A stretch of 20,989 nucleotides of DNA from a virus, in the IMG/VR virus record IMGVR_UViG_3300027899_001089, positions 1 to 20,989 of that record. The stretch is one strand, 5' to 3'. The notes below the pieces were generated by a model. That model saw nothing but the letters and a program-made list of their open reading frames with translations. It ran no database searches and was not told the origin of the DNA. This document shows positions 8,165 to 14,083 of this stretch, in pieces; positions within the stretch are counted from its first letter, which is position 1, and every line of letters begins with the position of its first letter. Both the position numbers and the translations under genes were made by a program.

Positions 8165-8524
8165 CTACGGCCATTTGATTGCTGCTATTGTAGCATATTT
8201 TGCATATTTTCGTCTGATCTTTATAGTTAGCCGATTTTCCGTGGCATCGCGATCTGCCATGCCCCAGTTCCAATCTCGCCCCTGCTTGCCCACATGCTTT
8301 TCTAACCACGGCCTGTAATGCTCGTTAGGATCTGCTGACAACCACTGCTCGTCTGTTTTATATTGATCAATGAATTCTTTAATTATTGGACCATTGGGCC
8401 ACGCTACATTGATAACAACTCCGGGCACAAATCGCCACCAAAGTTTGTCATACAGATTAAGACCACACGGCATCCAGTTTTGATCTCCAAAAAAGGTAAG
8501 GCCAGTAATTTCACTCTTACTCAT
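8165..8524 (-). CDS. Last gene of the paralog array, ends in I-K-W-P
   Basis: This 119-residue product starts at the ATG in the ATGA overlap at 8524; a GTG two codons upstream is less likely. The preceding gene's tail codons supply GAGGTGG as SD. Residues near the end follow the array pattern: a helix (YRPWLEKHVG), a Trp-containing stretch (GRDWNWGMADRD), a strand (RLTIKIRR) and ATIAAIKWP. The final Leu-Arg-Trp is replaced by Ile-Lys-Trp-Pro with codons ATA AAA TGG CCG, so no SD is encoded. That fits, since no gene follows within 99 nt. It is the longest array member. The function is unknown. Confidence 0.75.
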   Translation of the reverse strand: MSKSEITGLTFFGDQNWMPCGLNLYDKLWWRFVPGVVINVAWPNGPIIKEFIDQYKTDEQWLSADPNEHYRPWLEKHVGKQGRDWNWGMADRDATENRLTIKIRRKYAKYATIAAIKWP

Positions 8525-8787
8525 AACCACCTCAATAAAAACGCAGTAGCATCACGGCCTTCTTTAAATGCAAACTTTCCATCCCAGTAAAAATGCTCAC
8601 CTGCATTTGCATCTACCCATTGTTGCATTACTTTTTTAGACCCATATAGAAATGCATGCTGATAGGGAACATCAACTATGGTCCAGCCTAACGTTTCGTA
8701 TAGTATTTCATTATCAATGCTATCTGCCAAGTCATTGGTGAGTTTGTCTAATAACACCTGAACATCAAATTTTTTGGATATTGTCAT
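8521..8787 (-). CDS. Array paralog, C-terminus L-L-R-W-L
   Basis: The start is the ATG at 8787 (MTISKKFDVQVLLDKL), giving 88 residues. The preceding tail codons GAGGTGGGC form the SD, with an ATGA overlap. The C-terminal half shows the family order: a helix (KVMQQWVDANAGEHF), a Trp (YW), a strand (GKFAFKEG) and DATAFLLRWL. The last codons, TTG AGG TGG TTA TGA, provide the SD and ATGA start of the next gene; the final Leu replaces the usual Ser or Ala but keeps the A needed for ATGA. The function is unknown. Confidence 0.8.
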   Translation of the reverse strand: MTISKKFDVQVLLDKLTNDLADSIDNEILYETLGWTIVDVPYQHAFLYGSKKVMQQWVDANAGEHFYWDGKFAFKEGRDATAFLLRWL

Positions 8788-9035
8788 GCCCACCTCAATC
8801 CAACCCAAGTTGCCATCTTTGGATCCTTGAATGTGATGGTAGAAACAAACTGTTCACCATCCGGCTGACTGGCATTGTATGCACTATAATAGAACCAAGC
8901 ATCAGTATCCTTAAAGTCAGTGTGAAGAAGAAGAAAACGACCCGATACTGACCTATATACATTACCTGGCCCGATATTTTCTAGTAACCACTCAAAACAC
9001 TGGTTTGGAATACCTTGACGAAACTCTACTCTCAT
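8784..9035 (-). CDS. Array paralog, C-terminus G-L-R-W-A
   Basis: The ATG at 9035 (MRVEFRQGIPNQ) is chosen over the GTG at 9041 because it forms the ATGA junction with SD GAGGTGG. The 83-residue product has CFEWLLENIGPGNVY, the W...EN.G helix seen in several members, then a beta-rich middle and a final strand (FVSTITFKDPK) followed by MATWVGLRWA. The tail codons TTG AGG TGG GCA TGA act as the next gene's ribosome-binding site. The function is unknown. Confidence 0.8.
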   Translation of the reverse strand: MRVEFRQGIPNQCFEWLLENIGPGNVYRSVSGRFLLLHTDFKDTDAWFYYSAYNASQPDGEQFVSTITFKDPKMATWVGLRWA

Positions 9036-9223
9036 GACCACCTCAATATGAACATTAGTTTGTCTTGCTCTTTGGTAAAAAGGAAACGTTCATCCATATA
9101 TTCCCAATCTTTTGTACACTTGCCTATAGACGAAGAACACCAATCACTCAATTCTCTCCAATCTCCGTTATACCAGTTGTCTGTTCTAGGATACTTTATA
9201 TAATAAGGGAAAATAAGTTTCAT
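9032..9223 (-). CDS. Array paralog, C-terminus I-L-R-W-S
   Basis: This 63-residue protein starts at the ATG at 9223 (MKLIFPYYIKYPR) in the ATGA overlap. It is the most compact complete example of the family: a Trp-Cys helix (ELSDWCSSSIGK), a Trp (KDWEY), a strand (ERFLFTKEQ) and DKLMFILRWS. The tail codons TTG AGG TGG TCA TGA hold the SD and start of the next gene. No catalytic motif is evident. A small binding protein is the most one can say. Confidence 0.8.
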   Translation of the reverse strand: MKLIFPYYIKYPRTDNWYNGDWRELSDWCSSSIGKCTKDWEYMDERFLFTKEQDKLMFILRWS

Positions 9224-9507
9224 GACCACCTCAATAAAAACATAGTACGATCAGATTCGTTGCGGAACCAAAACACAGAATCGTTCATATACCAACGACC
9301 ACAATTTGTTTCCCATATGTTTGAGACAGGTCCGTAAGTTTTGATTGCCCACTTTTCCAGCACCATCCAATCAGCGAACACCGGCTTTACTTGATAGTAC
9401 CGAGCACCGTGTACTCTACCTTCATCTAATATAAGTGACATCTTAGGAATGCACGGAGCGAATATCATTGCCGGATACATACTGTTTATATCGTTGTCAA
9501 TGTTCAT
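9220..9507 (-). CDS. Array paralog, C-terminus L-L-R-W-S
   Basis: This 95-residue protein begins at the ATG at 9507 (MNIDNDINSMYPAM). Its second half contains a helix (DWMVLEKWAIKTYG), then NIWETNCGRWYMND, a strand (SVFWFRNES) and DRTMFLLRWS. It is translationally coupled on both sides by ATGA overlaps with a GAGGTGG SD inside the preceding tail. The first half has no visible likeness to neighbouring members, so N-termini vary while the tail stays fixed. Confidence 0.8.
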   Translation of the reverse strand: MNIDNDINSMYPAMIFAPCIPKMSLILDEGRVHGARYYQVKPVFADWMVLEKWAIKTYGPVSNIWETNCGRWYMNDSVFWFRNESDRTMFLLRWS

Positions 9508-9704
9508 GCCCACCTCAATATAAACATCAACGCATCTTTTTCATCGCGGAAATAGAAATCAGTCTTATTGTAACCATATACTGCATTCCATTTATCCTTA
9601 AATGCTCCTAGATTTTTTCCTAACCAAATTTCAATGTTTTCTATTTTGTCAGCATTGTTGATAGCAACTGATTTTGGCCACAGTGTTTTCTTTAGTACTC
9701 TCAT
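9504..9704 (-). CDS. First paralog of the downstream array block, C-terminus I-L-R-W-A
   Basis: The 66-residue product starts at the ATG at 9704 (MRVLKKTLWPKSV); GTG at 9710 is rejected by analogy with the other junctions. Family features are IENIEIWLGKNLG, KWNAVYG, a strand (TDFYFRDEK) and DALMFILRWA. It is the first gene after the promoter at 9761-9789. Its SD is the same GAGGTGG, though no full gene precedes it; the leader upstream can be read as a leftover F-I-L-R-W-A-stop tail. The function is unknown. Confidence 0.8.
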   Translation of the reverse strand: MRVLKKTLWPKSVAINNADKIENIEIWLGKNLGAFKDKWNAVYGYNKTDFYFRDEKDALMFILRWA

Positions 9705-9722
9705 GCCCACCTCAATATAAAA
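9705..9722 (-). repeat. Leader copy of the array SD repeat, ghost of a C-terminal tail
   Basis: The minus-strand bases just before the ATG at 9704 include ATATTGAGGTGGGC, the sequence found at the coding junctions at 9507, 9223, 9035 and 8787. Read in the appropriate frame they encode F-I-L-R-W-A-stop. The array unit therefore appears to have been copied together with the tail of an earlier gene. Confidence 0.7.
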
Positions 9723-9730
9723 TATAAATA
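9723..9730 (+). promoter_or_regulatory. T4-type late promoter octamer TATAAATA
   Basis: There is an exact TATAAATA on the plus strand, 108 nt upstream of the first holin-like gene. In T4-like phages this octamer is the -10 of late promoters read by the phage late sigma factor. Late expression suits membrane proteins that act at lysis. The single octamer lies in AT-rich DNA, so chance is not excluded. Confidence 0.55.
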
Positions 9731-9760
9731 GTTTCTTTCATACCTAAATAGTAACACTTA

Positions 9761-9789
9761 ATTATAACAAAAATTTGCATCTTTGTCTA
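9761..9789 (-). promoter_or_regulatory. Sigma-70-type promoter of the paralog array, TAGACA-17-TATAAT
   Basis: The minus strand has TAGACA (9789-9784), a 17-nt spacer and TATAAT (9766-9761). It lies in the gap between the divergent array and holin-like genes and would start a transcript about 50 nt before the ATG at 9704. Five of six -35 bases and all -10 bases match consensus. Confidence 0.7.
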
Positions 9790-9837
9790 TGGTTCTCTGC
9801 GTTGTTTAACAGTAGTTCTTAATTGGTAAATAATAGT

Positions 9838-10113
9838 ATGGACTTCCTAACTTTAGTAGCAGAACTTGGATTCCCTATTGCAGCAGCCATTGCATCAGGG
9901 TATTTCGTGTTCCTTACATTAAAATTTATATTAGCCAGCGTGACTAGTTCCGTAACCAGCATGGGTACAATTGCCAAAGGGCTTGACTCTCGCGTAGATA
10001 CTATGACACACCAATTGCAAAGGATTGACGTAAAAGTTAGCCATGTGTTAGGAATACAACCAGACTACGAAAGAATTGCCAGAGCCGAACAATCAGACCA
10101 GAGGAAAGACTAA
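9838..10113 (+). CDS. Holin-like small membrane protein, copy 1
   Basis: This 91-residue protein starts at the ATG at 9838 (MDFLTLVAELGFPIAAA); a TTG five codons upstream is less likely because the chosen start aligns with the sister gene. An N-terminal membrane segment at residues 10-33 (GFPIAAAIASGYFVFLTLKFI) is followed by a hydrophilic, probably helical part (DSRVDTMTHQLQRIDVKVSHV) and a basic end. One membrane segment plus a charged coiled-coil tail is the layout of BhlA/UviB-type holin-like proteins. It is expressed on the opposite strand from its neighbours, behind a late octamer. Its TAA overlaps the start of copy 2 (TAATG). The holin role is inferred, not shown. Confidence 0.65.
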   Translation: MDFLTLVAELGFPIAAAIASGYFVFLTLKFILASVTSSVTSMGTIAKGLDSRVDTMTHQLQRIDVKVSHVLGIQPDYERIARAEQSDQRKD

Positions 10114-10394
10114 TGAACAACATAGTTGAGTTAGTTGATAAATTTGGATTTCCGATTATAGCAGCATTCGGCTGCGGGTTCATGATATATTACGTGTGGA
10201 CTTGGGTAACTAAAGAAATTAAACCAGTGATCAGTCAAACTAATACTACATTGGTTGCACTTATTGATCGTATCAGACTGCTGGACAATGATTTAATCAG
10301 ATTAAATCAAAAAGTTGAAACTGTTATTGAATTACGCAACATTGCGATAGAGCGCGAGCGTATGCAAGCAGACGTTGATATAAACAAAGAATAA
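10113..10394 (+). CDS. Holin-like small membrane protein, copy 2
   Basis: This 93-residue protein starts with MNNIVELVDKFGFPIIAAFG, clearly related to copy 1 (V-D/E-x-x-GFPI-x-AA). A hydrophobic stretch (residues 12-34) precedes a helical charged region with heptad-like spacing (VISQTNTTLVALIDRIRLL, then LIRLNQKVETVIEL). GAGGAAAG lies 5-6 nt before the ATG, and translation is probably coupled to copy 1. Two related proteins may act as a hetero-oligomer, as in holin/antiholin pairs, or simply reflect duplication. The downstream sequence contains two short hairpins. Confidence 0.65.
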   Translation: MNNIVELVDKFGFPIIAAFGCGFMIYYVWTWVTKEIKPVISQTNTTLVALIDRIRLLDNDLIRLNQKVETVIELRNIAIERERMQADVDINKE

Positions 10395-10412
10395 AAAAGG
10401 CCTTTCTGCCTT
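10393..10412 (-). terminator. Probable intrinsic terminator of the upper array block
   Basis: On the minus strand a 5-bp stem (AAGGC/GCCTT) with a 6-nt loop is followed by six U residues. It lies about 70 nt after the last gene of the 11188-10483 block. The stem is short, so strength is uncertain. Confidence 0.5.
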
Positions 10413-10415
10413 AGT

Positions 10416-10434
10416 GCTGGTTACATGTTCCAGC
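10416..10434. terminator. Short hairpin in the convergent gap
   Basis: GCTGG and CCAGC pair around a 9-nt loop, followed on the plus strand by a pyrimidine-rich stretch. It may help end transcription of the holin-like pair; evidence is weak. Confidence 0.3.
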
Positions 10435-10482
10435 CTCCTCCTTATTTTGTAGTCGGTTTTCTTGCGTCAGCTGCTGAGAAAT

Positions 10483-10734
10483 TTATGACCACCTCAATAA
10501 AAACATAGTCCATTGTTTGTTGGTAAATTCATAGGTCACATGACTTCTTTTACAACGATACATTTTGGACATTCCAAAATATTCAGGTACTGATAAAAAT
10601 AGACCTTCGTACCCCTTGCACTCCCACATTACCATCATATCTGCTGGCATCTGTGTTCTAACAATTTCATCAACCATTTTCCATTGCCGAATTTGTGATA
10701 AGTCATTTATAAATCCACAACTCAGAACTTTCAT
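10483..10734 (-). CDS. Array paralog, C-terminus L-L-R-W-S, last of the upper block
   Basis: The 83-residue product begins at the ATG at 10734 (MKVLSCGFINDLSQ); an in-frame ATG at 10740 is possible. It has no obvious shared N-terminal sequence, a central Cys/Met-rich part (MPADMMVMWECKGYEGLFL) and the tail VTYEFTNKQWTMFLLRWS. The last codons TTG AGG TGG TCA still spell the SD, but the stop is TAA rather than the ATGA overlap and no gene follows on this strand. The SD is thus orphaned next to the holin-like insertion. The function is unknown. Confidence 0.75.
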   Translation of the reverse strand: MKVLSCGFINDLSQIRQWKMVDEIVRTQMPADMMVMWECKGYEGLFLSVPEYFGMSKMYRCKRSHVTYEFTNKQWTMFLLRWS

Positions 10735-10961
10735 GTCCATCTCAATGTAAACCAGGCTAACTGCTCGGGGGTATCAAATGTCACAGTCATGCCACTCACC
10801 ACGCCTCCGTTTTCTATACACCAGATCACCAATTCATCAATGTGTTGCGCCCAATATCCAATGTCGGTTAAGATGACCACTATATTGGGTTCAACTAGCA
10901 AATGGTAAGCAGCAACGACAAATTTACTGTTCCGCCATTCCTGAAATACATCCTGGCTCAT
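10731..10961 (-). CDS. Array paralog, C-terminus T-L-R-W-T
   Basis: The 76-residue product starts at the ATG at 10961 (MSQDVFQEWRNSKF), in the ATGA overlap; another ATG two codons upstream (10967) is possible. The second half shows family features: HIDELVIWCIENGGVV, a strand (SGMTVTFDTPE) and QLAWFTLRWT. The tail codons are TTG AGA TGG ACA TGA, so the SD is changed to GAGATGG, still usable but weaker. The function is unknown. Confidence 0.75.
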   Translation of the reverse strand: MSQDVFQEWRNSKFVVAAYHLLVEPNIVVILTDIGYWAQHIDELVIWCIENGGVVSGMTVTFDTPEQLAWFTLRWT

Positions 10962-11188
10962 GTCCATTTTAGCTTAAACCATGCAGCATCTTGTGCGTGT
11001 TTAAAATAAAAAAATGTAGTGCCAAACATGGTGCTAAGTCCCCAGTTTCCCAGCCCTTCCCAATGCAGTGGCTCACTGTAGAACCAGAGTATGTGGTGAT
11101 CTCCGAATAAACTTTTGCACCAGGATATCATCTCCTTTTGCAGGTGGTACTGATTTTTATAAATCTCAACAGTGTACGTCACAGTCAT
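10958..11188 (-). CDS. Array paralog, C-terminus K-L-K-W-T, first of the upper block
   Basis: The 76-residue product is taken from the ATG at 11188 (MTVTYTVEIYKNQY). A longer frame from a TTG at 11230 would run through a 13-bp hairpin and is not favoured. Family features are EMISWCKSLFGDHH, a Trp-rich centre (LHWEGLGNWGLS), a strand (GTTFFYFKHAQ) and DAAWFKLKWT. The tail codons CTA AAA TGG ACA TGA encode Lys rather than Arg and give no SD, although the next gene still overlaps at ATGA. No SD is visible for this gene either; a strong stem-loop sits just upstream. Confidence 0.7.
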   Translation of the reverse strand: MTVTYTVEIYKNQYHLQKEMISWCKSLFGDHHILWFYSEPLHWEGLGNWGLSTMFGTTFFYFKHAQDAAWFKLKWT

Positions 11189-11200
11189 GATACAGTGTTC

Positions 11201-11230
11201 TTGATCCGAGTGCGCCTGCACTCGGATCAA
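11201..11230 (-). other. Perfect 13-bp inverted repeat with 4-nt loop
   Basis: TTGATCCGAGTGC and its complement flank a 4-nt loop, with no mismatches. It lies between the stop of the VWA-like gene (11239) and the ATG at 11188, 12 nt before the latter. No U-run follows on either strand, so it is not a classical intrinsic terminator. RNA processing, message stabilisation or control of the next start are possible. Confidence 0.8.
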
Positions 11231-11238
11231 AACTATTA

Positions 11239-12537
11239 TTAGGCACTAGCTAATTTTTTAGACACTTCGTAGTGTGCCCAGACTCCGAATTCTGGTTCGG
11301 CATTTTCGTTGCCCTTGATAATCCATACCGTGTCGCAGTAGTCCTTGACATCGTGGGGGCGCCAGCCGTAAAAGCAAAAATCTGTGAACATGATCAATTT
11401 CTTGGGCTCAATGTTCTCAGCAATTAGCCAATCCCAGACGCAGTGTGGATCAGTACCGCCACCGCCGCCGGGCTGATATGCTGCAATATCGGCAAGATTA
11501 TCACTGGTATATTCCTGGGGATTATAGACACTGGTGTCCCAGGTGATCACACGAATTTTATATTCATCGTAGGATTCCATCATGCCCTTGACCTCGCTCA
11601 AAAAGATTCCGATATCTTCTTCGGAAATTGATCCCGAAGTATCAATGGCCACGCAGACGTCAATCTGGCTTCCGGGAGTCATACCGGGCATGATAGCATC
11701 CATGTGCCAGCTACGGCGATTTGGGCGCATCCAGCTAAAGTCATTTTTAACAGTGGACTGGATCTGCTGATCCATGAGCTCTCGCCAGTTGACCACAGGT
11801 TTTGTAAGATCCTTGATCAGACGCTTGACTCCGGCCGGTAGGTTACTAGAGCCAGTTGCCTGGGCAGCCTGCAACAGTGCCTGGCGAATCTCGTCCTTGA
11901 TCTCACGACGTTCTTCGTCGGACAACCTGGGACGACCACGTCCATTGCCTGTGCCGTCTTTTTCATCCTGGCTGCCAGCCTGGGAATCTGAACTTCCATC
12001 CAGATGTTCGTCCAGAACTTCTTGCAGCAGATTACTGATGTCAATTTTGTCAGCTTTTTCGTAGAGATCGTCGTAGACTTCTTCAGCGCTCCAGCCACGA
12101 TACTTGGTATCGTACAGGCATGGTGTAATTTTCTCACCGATCTTCTGATCAATTAGATCACTGTTTACACAAAAATCAGCAGCACAATTGAACAACTGGC
12201 GATCTCTGGTGCTGCCAGTGCGGCCAATATGATCGTAGACATTGTGCAATACTTCGTGCCCAAACAGAAATTCTACTTCCTTGGGCTTCAGTTTATTAAC
12301 AAATTCAGTATTGTAGAAAAAGTTACGGCCGTCGGTGGCAGCAGTGCCTAGCCAGTTATCTGCGTTGACCAATTTAAGTCGAGTTGCTAGATTACCAAAA
12401 AACGGTGCACGTAGTAAAAGCCCAATACGTGCCGTGATTAGTTTTTCGCGCACTAGATTATCCAGATGCGGATCAATGGTTTCGGTCAATTTGCCGGCCA
12501 GTTTGTGATTCTTTTTTTCCTTGGATGTAGTTGCCAT
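11239..12537 (-). CDS. VWA-like/putative metallopeptidase protein, partner of MoxR ATPase
   Basis: This 432-residue protein has two recognisable parts. The N-terminal putative metallopeptidase region contains the zinc-binding signature HEVLH (His94, Glu95, His98). The C-terminal von Willebrand A-like region has a MIDAS motif DTSGS (299-303), an RVITWDTSVY strand and GGGGGTDPHCVWDW. Between them lies a charged, low-complexity linker (about 175-215). The arrangement matches the DUF2201 family, usually encoded with a MoxR AAA ATPase, as here. The known theme of such pairs is metal insertion or remodelling of protein complexes; the phage role is unknown. AAGGA lies 9 nt before the ATG, and a strong promoter lies about 35 nt upstream. 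Confidence 0.88.
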   Translation of the reverse strand: MATTSKEKKNHKLAGKLTETIDPHLDNLVREKLITARIGLLLRAPFFGNLATRLKLVNADNWLGTAATDGRNFFYNTEFVNKLKPKEVEFLFGHEVLHNVYDHIGRTGSTRDRQLFNCAADFCVNSDLIDQKIGEKITPCLYDTKYRGWSAEEVYDDLYEKADKIDISNLLQEVLDEHLDGSSDSQAGSQDEKDGTGNGRGRPRLSDEERREIKDEIRQALLQAAQATGSSNLPAGVKRLIKDLTKPVVNWRELMDQQIQSTVKNDFSWMRPNRRSWHMDAIMPGMTPGSQIDVCVAIDTSGSISEEDIGIFLSEVKGMMESYDEYKIRVITWDTSVYNPQEYTSDNLADIAAYQPGGGGGTDPHCVWDWLIAENIEPKKLIMFTDFCFYGWRPHDVKDYCDTVWIIKGNENAEPEFGVWAHYEVSKKLASA

Positions 12538-12572
12538 CTAGCTGTTCCTTAAGTTAGTTAACGTATGCATGT

Positions 12573-12601
12573 ATTATATCTGAATCTAGATTTAACGTCA
12601 A
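12573..12601 (-). promoter_or_regulatory. Sigma-70-type promoter, TTGACG-17-TATAAT
   Basis: The minus strand has TTGACG (12601-12596), a 17-nt spacer and TATAAT (12578-12573). It drives the VWA-like gene. The leader closely resembles that of the promoter at 15177-15205, sharing GTTAAC-like and AAGGAACAG blocks. Confidence 0.75.
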
Positions 12602-12612
12602 CGTCCAAATAT

Positions 12613-12927
12613 TTAACCGTATTTTAATTTGAAAAATGCAGCCTGTTCGCCGCCAGATAGATAGATAAAACCCACGGGTCTGAATCGGTACTTCCTGGGT
12701 GTTGGATCTACCAAACGCCAGGACCAGATGTCATTGTAGAGTTGCCCTAGTTCCACCGTGATCAGATCTATTTCACAACTGGCACCCCAGGTTTCCCAGC
12801 AGAACTTTCTAATTTTTAAAAATTCTTCAAATCCATATAGGGGCACACGATACTGAAATAAAGTGTGGCCCGTATGACGGGCATCAAGTTTTTCAAGAAC
12901 AATGGACATATTTAGAATAATGGACAT
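12613..12927 (-). CDS. F-x-L-K-Y-tail paralog between the MoxR and VWA genes
   Basis: This 104-residue protein belongs to the same short family as the 8.2-11.2 kb array. A Trp-Cys helix (FLKIRKFCWETWGA), a Trp pair (DIWSWRLVD), a strand (GFIYLSGGE) and QAAFFKLKYG correspond to the shared layout. The tail codons TTA AAA TAC GGT carry no SD, and no gene overlaps downstream. The first residues are a tandem duplication (MSIILN-MSIVLE) caused by an 18-bp repeat, so the start may be at 12927 or 12909; no SD is visible for either. The function is unknown. Confidence 0.7.
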   Translation of the reverse strand: MSIILNMSIVLEKLDARHTGHTLFQYRVPLYGFEEFLKIRKFCWETWGASCEIDLITVELGQLYNDIWSWRLVDPTPRKYRFRPVGFIYLSGGEQAAFFKLKYG

Positions 12928-12936
12928 ATTTCTAAT
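12901..12936 (-). repeat. Tandem 18-bp repeat duplicating a start codon
   Basis: Two adjacent 18-bp units (12901-12918 and 12919-12936) differ at 2 positions. Each carries an ATGTCCATT on the minus strand, so the gene has two in-frame starts 18 nt apart. Confidence 0.85.
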
Positions 12937-12948
12937 AATAGGAAATAG

Positions 12949-12964
12949 GGGGCATGCATGCCCC
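12949..12964. terminator. 16-bp GC-rich palindrome after the MoxR gene
   Basis: GGGGCATGCATGCCCC folds as a 6-bp stem with a 4-nt loop. It lies 6 nt past the MoxR stop on the minus strand, where the following sequence is only mildly U-rich. A TAGTTTTTA tract follows on the plus strand instead. It may slow or end transcription between the MoxR gene and the paralog, or protect the message end. Confidence 0.45.
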
Positions 12965-12970
12965 TAGTTT

Positions 12971-14083
12971 TTACTTCTGGCTAGCTGCCACCACATACTT
13001 GCCAAACCGCTTGTGGAATTCATCAAAATTCTTGAGCTTGCCGGGCACAAAGGGCAGATCGTAGGTAGTAAGTGCAACACGGGCTCCCATGACGGTTACC
13101 TCAGTGGTAAAGTTATCCATCATAAACTTAAAGAAGTTATCAGCCTTGGCGTGCCATTCAGCACTGGGCTTACCGCTGTCTTTCTGGATGGCGTCTTGCA
13201 ACTCATAGCACATGGCCACAGTGAGCGAGTACATGGCGGAAATTTCCTTGATTTTGAGCTCAGTTACTTTGCCCATCAGGATTTCTTCGGGTTTGGGCAA
13301 CTGTCCTGAAATTTTACGGTGTGCCATGAATTTAATAGCAACACCTTCACCAACTGCACCAGAAATCAGGTCAGTCATTTCACCATCACTGAGTCCTGTG
13401 TCTTCATTGAGCAGCTGACTGACAAAACTCCAGGTACGTGGTGTAGCAAATGCACGGGAACTGGACCGCGGATCAAAATCATGCAGATCCTGCTTGGCAA
13501 AACCCACGTAGCCCACGACATCTTTATGAATTTTATTGTTCACTGCCCAGGACTCCCAGCTGGCATGATCCACACGCATTTCAAGATGCAGGAAACGATT
13601 GGCCAGAGGGGCAGGCATGCGATAAGTGACGCCTTTGTCGCTTTCACGGTTGCCTGCGGCAACTACCACCACATTCTTGGGCAACACATATTTGCCGATT
13701 CGGCGATTAAGGATCAGCTGATAGGCAGCAGCTTGGATGCTGGGCGCAGCACTGTTCATTTCATCAAGAAACAGAACAACGATTGGGTGCTGGCTAGCAG
13801 TTTCTTCGTCGGGCAGATCCACCGGAGGTGCCCAGTCCATACGACCAATATCTTTGTTAAAGTAGGGAATTCCACGGAGATCAGTGGGTTCCATCTGTGC
13901 AAGGCGTAGATCAATCATTAGCCCGCCCAACTGTGTGGTGATACTGGCAATCAGTTCAGATTTGCCAATTCCCGGAGGGCCCCATAGGAAGACAGGGCGT
14001 TGCATCTTGAAGCAGGCCATGATGCTGCGGCGGGCGGTTTCGCTGGTAACAGTACGATTTTCGGATACAGTTTCTTTGCTCAT
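12971..14083 (-). CDS. MoxR-family AAA+ ATPase
   Basis: This 370-residue protein carries Walker A GPPGIGKS (35-42), Walker B VVLFLDEMN (102-110), and a sensor-1 stretch VVVVAAGNRESD with Asn145, followed by MPAPLANRFLHLEM as the arginine-finger region. The layout fits the MoxR/CbbQ/NorQ group, chaperone-like ATPases that work with a VWA partner. That partner is encoded about 430 nt downstream, separated by one small gene. The SD AAGGAG lies 8 nt before the ATG, and a promoter (CAGACA-17-TATAAT) lies about 40 nt upstream. Which complex the pair remodels during infection is unknown. Confidence 0.9.
   Translation of the reverse strand: MSKETVSENRTVTSETARRSIMACFKMQRPVFLWGPPGIGKSELIASITTQLGGLMIDLRLAQMEPTDLRGIPYFNKDIGRMDWAPPVDLPDEETASQHPIVVLFLDEMNSAAPSIQAAAYQLILNRRIGKYVLPKNVVVVAAGNRESDKGVTYRMPAPLANRFLHLEMRVDHASWESWAVNNKIHKDVVGYVGFAKQDLHDFDPRSSSRAFATPRTWSFVSQLLNEDTGLSDGEMTDLISGAVGEGVAIKFMAHRKISGQLPKPEEILMGKVTELKIKEISAMYSLTVAMCYELQDAIQKDSGKPSAEWHAKADNFFKFMMDNFTTEVTVMGARVALTTYDLPFVPGKLKNFDEFHKRFGKYVVAASQK

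Follow-up and report, generated by a model that had tools for sequence, protein, structure and literature searches.

Gene junctions on the minus strand

The stretch of viral DNA analyzed here, positions 1 to 20,989 of the IMG/VR record IMGVR_UViG_3300027899_001089 (hereafter the window; 20,989 nucleotides, nt), holds on its minus strand two arrays of short genes that share one helix-like protein tail, Leu-Arg-Trp, whose codons can at the same time be read as a Shine-Dalgarno (SD) site for the next gene. The question raised by this locus is whether the tail is conserved for the protein itself or for the initiation of the gene that follows. Sequence comparison makes a divided answer very probable: Phe, Leu and Trp of the tail would be conserved at the protein level, and part of the Arg conservation, together with the codons used, would come from the SD site of the next gene. 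The genes of the second array are as follows, with E-values for a profile of the tail family described below and, for one model, the AlphaFold confidence score (predicted local distance difference test, pLDDT).

9504..9704, minus strand: tail gene, 66 amino acids, ending TTG AGG TGG GCA TGA (family profile E=1.5e-20; AlphaFold pLDDT 92.8)
9220..9507, minus strand: tail gene, 95 amino acids, ending TTG AGG TGG TCA TGA (family profile E=1.2e-12)
9032..9223, minus strand: tail gene, 63 amino acids, ending TTG AGG TGG TCA TGA (family profile E=2.1e-11)
8784..9035, minus strand: tail gene, 83 amino acids, ending TTG AGG TGG GCA TGA (family profile E=2.9e-5)
8521..8787, minus strand: tail gene, 88 amino acids, ending TTG AGG TGG TTA TGA (family profile E=5.8e-7)
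8165..8524, minus strand: last gene of the array, 119 amino acids, starting inside the overlap at 8524 (no family-profile match at E<=10)

At the five junctions 9507, 9223, 9035, 8787 and 8524 the letters read TTG AGG TGG NNA TGA in every case, as a sequence-only reading of the window had reported, with GCA, TCA, TCA, GCA and TTA in this order as the fourth codon. Each of the genes starting there overlaps the preceding stop as ATGA on the same strand, one of the two overlaps (ATGA or TAATG) of coupled gene pairs, and GAGG lies 5 nt before the start, within the 4-9 nt of an SD site. Five exact copies of TTGAGGTGGNCATGA occur in the window, and none of the reversed control. The sequence-only reading had put the match to the ideal anti-SD complement at 8 of 9 bases, which is true of the TCA junctions only, the GCA and TTA junctions matching at 7 of 9. 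It had also taken the last gene of the array for a family member ending in ATA AAA TGG; the end at 8165 is actually ATC AAA TGG CCG TAG, and the gene is undetected by the family profile.

Dependence of the tail codons on a following gene

ORF (open reading frame) ends of the form F-x-L-(R/K)-W numbered 99 in loci fetched by unrelated neighbor genes, against 0-1 for scrambled motifs, and the tail is therefore not a product of chance. Codon usage was compared in loci collected via neighbor genes and the N-terminal and central motifs of one subfamily; tail codons played no role in this selection. Equal tail codon use in members without a downstream gene had been named in advance as the refutation of a link to the next gene. 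In this sample use was not equal: AGG was present in 161 of the 259 coupled members versus 4 of the 40 uncoupled ones (odds ratio (OR) 14.8, Fisher p=4e-10). The same contrast was seen for Arg itself (191/259 versus 14/40; OR 5.2, p=4e-6), for TTG among Leu codons (161/254 versus 10/36, p=9e-5) and for a G-ending codon before the Arg/Lys position (OR 4.9). End codons with and without a downstream start thus differ in AGG, TTG and Arg, as for an SD site embedded in upstream coding sequence. In gene bodies, AGG makes up 8% of Arg codons and TTG 20% of Leu codons.

The dependence follows the distance to the next start. For this analysis, members were recognized by profile, with no requirement for R/K between Leu and Trp, which an earlier motif had imposed. 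The frequency of AGG was 0.68 at a codon-to-start distance of 4-6 nt, 0.67 at 7-9 nt and 0.18 at 10-12 nt, then 0.08, 0.14 and 0.05 farther away; it was 0.21 in 14 members without any following start. Over the same bins, from 4-6 nt outward, Arg ran through 0.78, 0.77, 0.39, 0.33, 0.49 and 0.32, and the G-ending preceding codon through 0.82, 0.61, 0.37, 0.42, 0.35 and 0.38, while the frequency of Trp stayed flat at 0.81-0.93. Because Phe, Leu and Trp are kept regardless of coupling, an influence of the next gene can be claimed only for the codons and for whether the residue is Arg or Lys. The sequence-only reading had proposed that initiation of the next gene accounts for part, and only part, of the apparent protein conservation; both its interpretation and its caution are supported by these codon and residue comparisons, since the Arg-versus-Lys choice and the codons track coupling.

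Mean pairing energies, calculated for the 20 bases upstream of coupled starts against the anti-SD, were -10.6 kcal/mol for AGG, -4.8 for AGA, -3.8 for AAG and -2.6 for AAA, versus -4.3 at uncoupled ends. The remaining ATGA overlaps of the same loci, a set that surely contains chance ORFs, averaged -4.0. As a side observation, G001 (L310, L311) and the cultured phage Phosso (2821-2895) encode a tRNA-Arg(CCT) that reads the tail AGG; G001 additionally encodes a tRNA-Leu(CAA) that reads the tail TTG, among about 40 tRNAs in total, so this may be meaningless.

The tail genes are paralogues, and if the coupled arrays go back to a single ancestor with TTG AGG TGG by chance, codons and coupling would co-occur without any selection. 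We consider shared descent of this kind unlikely. The effect is present within loci holding both classes, for AGG (60/87 coupled versus 5/24 uncoupled, within-locus permutation p<5e-5) and for Arg (66/87 versus 12/24, p=0.015), as well as between matched homologues differing in coupling, where AGG stands at 50 versus 7 at an identity of at least 35% (p=4e-9) and at 20 versus 6 at an identity of at least 50% (p=0.009). Descent alone does not predict an SD-like spacing profile that includes the -1 overlap class, and the codons persist in genes whose bodies retain only 19% mean column identity.

Several results weigh against a selective effect of the next gene, the first of them also favoring shared descent. 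Among matched homologues of at least 65% identity the AGG contrast is 6 versus 3 and not significant, some of the 'uncoupled' members in this comparison being misclassified, as their next ORF is short. For Arg alone, matched homologues of at least 50% identity give 12 versus 8. The control Phe codon differs slightly too (TTT, OR 2.9, p=0.02), which leaves slight confounding by composition or subfamily. About one third of the ATGA-coupled members have no AGG and pair weakly with the anti-SD; the SD site is therefore not required. Finally, AGG is retained in the 4 of 40 uncoupled members and also at 10483 in the window, which belongs, with other departures from the rule, to the first array and a solitary gene beyond it.

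10958..11197, minus strand: first tail gene of the first array, ending CTA AAA TGG ACA TGA, overlap without SD (profile E=2.4e-9)
10731..10961, minus strand: tail gene, ATGA-coupled, TTG AGA TGG ACA (family profile E=3.3e-7)
10483..10734, minus strand: tail gene, ending TTG AGG TGG TCA TAA, an exception with no coupled gene downstream (profile E=0.012, weak)
10397..10412, minus strand: terminator-like hairpin closing the first array (consensus match only)
12613..12927, minus strand: solitary tail gene, ending TTA AAA TAC GGT TAA, uncoupled (family profile E=0.0015)

The sequence-only reading had treated TTG AGG as the rule at coupled junctions, which describes the five named junctions but fails at 10731, coupled through ATGA yet using AGA. 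Its statement that uncoupled members lack the SD holds at 12613 and breaks down at 10483, where the full TTG AGG TGG TCA TAA is kept; this gene, the 10740 gene, lies inside the interval of that reading as an unlisted exception and is followed by the hairpin at 10412-10397. The Lys-bearing member at 10958 does keep the ATGA overlap without an SD, as had been pointed out. The original observation is real and has been confirmed in part.

Uncoupled ends show a further arrangement. At several of them (L130, L177, L286, L330 and others) the TGA stop is often part of the following promoter's -35 box (T-TGA-CA, 17 nt, TATAAT). Of the good promoter matches, 16 of 37 behind uncoupled tail genes and 97 of 356 behind other ORFs have this arrangement, far more than any other offset. 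It was rejected as a tail-specific feature, being common across these phages, and is a genome-wide packing trick.

Protein family and predicted fold

The profile seeded on the window gene 9504-9704 matched 782 of the 898 tail proteins in the first locus set, and a later scan of all loci yielded 1537 members (1124 after near-duplicate removal), with no match among 19,400 reversed ORFs. In an alignment of 80 members the mean column identity is only 19%, yet the Phe, Leu and Trp of the helix are nearly invariant. A single 94-kb contig contains 88 family-profile matches. Among cultured phages, Phosso has 29 matches at E<=0.01, Atu_ph07 five and PA5oct four, whereas the profile found none in RaK2, P-SSM2, HTVC008M, T4 and Vibrio 2.275.O. 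A presence in cyanophages was not supported by this search.

The AlphaFold model of the 9504-9704 product (pLDDT as listed) is a strand-helix-strand-strand-helix arrangement, with the tail at residues 55-65 in the last helix. A second, dissimilar subfamily is modeled as a strand, two helices, a strand and a helix (pLDDT 90.4), with the tail again in the final helix; from this layout and the profile, both subfamilies likely share one fold. The tail is thus predicted to be the last helix of an unannotated mini-domain expanded in jumbo phages. Helix periodicity would place Ala58, Phe61 and Trp65 on one face, with Leu63 beside it, and the variable Ile62 and Arg64 elsewhere; the Arg position may be free to vary because it falls off this face. 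Phosso has R, T, A, S, V or E at the position between Leu and Trp. In one case (L285:10960-11367, in the 94-kb contig), the domain occurs twice in tandem within a single ORF, and the second copy keeps its Met behind the first tail; two cassettes are fused here.

Searches of the viral structure library BFVD by Foldseek with the first model returned uncharacterized proteins from Agrobacterium phage Atu_ph07 and from phages of the Caudovirales known only from uncultured sources (E from 2.6e-4 to about 0.05, TM-score about 0.6-0.8). These proteins are alike in predicted fold, and their function is undescribed. For the model of the second subfamily, the same library yielded nothing convincing. The 80-member alignment gave no match at E<=0.01 in Pfam or NCBIfam, and the 80 members one weak PHROGs match and two weak PADLOC matches, a result that a distant family may have escaped. 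A tblastn search of phage records with two members found nothing, although the profile detects relatives in Phosso, Atu_ph07 and PA5oct, and bacterial genome contigs searched with one N-terminal pattern contained no relative. In the PDB, the sequence search gave a single weak match (3ct8, E=0.085) and the fold search a best Foldseek E of 0.22 and a VIA Z of 6.5, in the range deemed uninformative. Matches of member A3 to designed TIM barrels were judged spurious, no single stretch passing. A description of the family was not found in the literature searched, which largely excluded subscription journals. The large number of the proteins, their diversity, their folded nature and their ready gain and loss lead to our best guess, made with low confidence, that they are small binding proteins acting on the host.

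Exchange of cassettes at the stop codon

When homologous cassettes (at least 60% identity) were compared between contigs, the next gene belonged to a different family in 142 of 165 pairs. Up to the stop their nucleotide identity is about 0.8; beyond it the value is about 0.3, which puts the break precisely at the stop codon. The longest run of tail genes in the deduplicated set is 19. Judged by these comparisons, the tail genes are shuffled cassettes, and each appears to carry the ribosome site of its neighbor. Sites of the TTGAGGTGG type without a long upstream ORF are few (12 of 379), and several of them precede the first gene of an array. The window has one such site.

9701..9715, minus strand: stand-alone TTGAGGTGGGCATGA leader that supplies SD and ATG for the opening gene of the second array and has no gene body before it
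9761..9789, minus strand: sigma-70-like promoter of the second array, TAGACA-17-TATAAT (consensus match only, 11/12 positions)

This sixth copy of the site has an in-frame upstream ORF of just 15 codons, sits about 46 nt downstream of the predicted promoter and is identical over 21 nt to the 9504 junction.

Identical junction runs of 15-21 nt might instead be kept for cassette swapping by homologous recombination or copy choice. The exchanged neighbors and the precise break at the stop would suit a recombination site, as would the identical runs of at least 15 nt that flank 66 of 429 cassettes (up to 30 nt, and 21 nt in the window). The median flanking identity is merely 5 nt, however, and recombination leaves the spacing dependence and the change at uncoupled ends unexplained, so that we regard it as quite improbable in place of the SD; it may play a role additional to it. 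Least probable of all is a role of AGG itself: as a rare codon (8% of Arg codons in gene bodies) it would slow the ribosome ahead of the stop, or it would keep out the in-frame ATGG of AGA TGG and AAA TGG, both of which do place an ATG at 6 nt before the start. Against this, the preceding codon is G-ending in 145 of 161 AGG cases, giving GAGG, the equally ATG-free CGG, CGT and CGC are nearly unused when coupled (5 of 191 Arg), and AGG declines with start distance while stop distance stays constant.

The explanation that we favor, selection on the SD of the next gene within a tail otherwise kept for the protein, would work as follows. The tail would be the C-terminal helix of a small, highly diverse domain whose genes are strung in polycistronic arrays, and Phe, Leu and Trp would be retained for the protein's own needs. 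The position between Leu and Trp tolerates Arg, Lys and other residues, so that selection could fix AGG there if another gene follows. A G-ending codon before it would also be selected, placing GAGG 5 nt (or 8 nt) upstream of a next start that overlaps the stop as ATGA or TAATG. A ribosome finishing one gene could then reinitiate, or a new ribosome be recruited, at the next. With the neighbor's ribosome site on each cassette, genes could be gained, lost and reordered without losing translation. A broader proposal, which we advance tentatively and at somewhat less than even confidence, is that the tail serves as a standard connector, about 15 nt that unite C-terminal helix, ribosome site, stop codon and start codon. 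Jumbo phages could thereby maintain a library of small folded proteins that is both shuffled and hypervariable; any cassette would be expressed wherever it lands because its upstream neighbor supplies the ribosome site.

Neighboring features of the window

Between both tail arrays, at 9823-10394 on the plus strand, two small proteins of similar appearance are encoded in convergent orientation; both have a hydrophobic stretch at the N terminus and neither has a Pfam match, and the pair was possibly inserted there. A hairpin with a 13-bp stem at 11201-11230, terminator-like on the plus strand, separates the first tail gene from a DUF2201 gene. The latter encodes a metallopeptidase/VWA-like protein and stands close to an AAA ATPase (11239-14083) beside the arrays, a proximity also seen in Phosso and probably in Atu_ph07. 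A predicted promoter-like site (12601-12573) comes after the solitary tail gene.

Comparison with known systems

The arrays offer a natural comparison, their hundreds of paralogues being followed by another gene in some cases and not in others, so that selection on RNA can be told apart from selection on protein at single residues. They caution that conservation of a residue at the end of a gene can be due to the start of the next one, and they uncover a large family of phage proteins, small, folded and unannotated, that is maintained as exchangeable cassettes.

It is well established that SD sites can lie within upstream coding sequence and that genes can overlap as NTGA (PMC2784483, PMC12548453, PMC6728339). 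One published study of such sites reports effects of stop codon and spacing, without discussing amino acids, whereas here the Arg-versus-Lys choice is affected too. Translationally coupled pairs have a -4 (NTGA) or -1 (TAATG) overlap, and an SD can raise coupling (PMC12548453; PMC6728339; PMC10666635). The arrays resemble them in stop/start overlaps and close spacing; here, instead, one junction recurs through arrays of paralogues and is joined to a conserved protein helix. Integron gene cassettes carry attC sites and are moved by an integrase, whereas the cassettes described here abut without intergenic DNA, leaving little room for attC, at which no search was aimed. In bicistronic design, the SD lies inside a leader and stop and start overlap. 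The leader cistron is translated before the target gene, which makes expression reliable (PMC5995908, PMC10367133). The resemblance is confined to working and anatomy; the arrays are natural and chained over many genes, each leader being a functional-looking protein. Within the literature searched, the chained use of such a junction over a hypervariable paralogous family, with a measurable effect on an amino acid, seems to be new.

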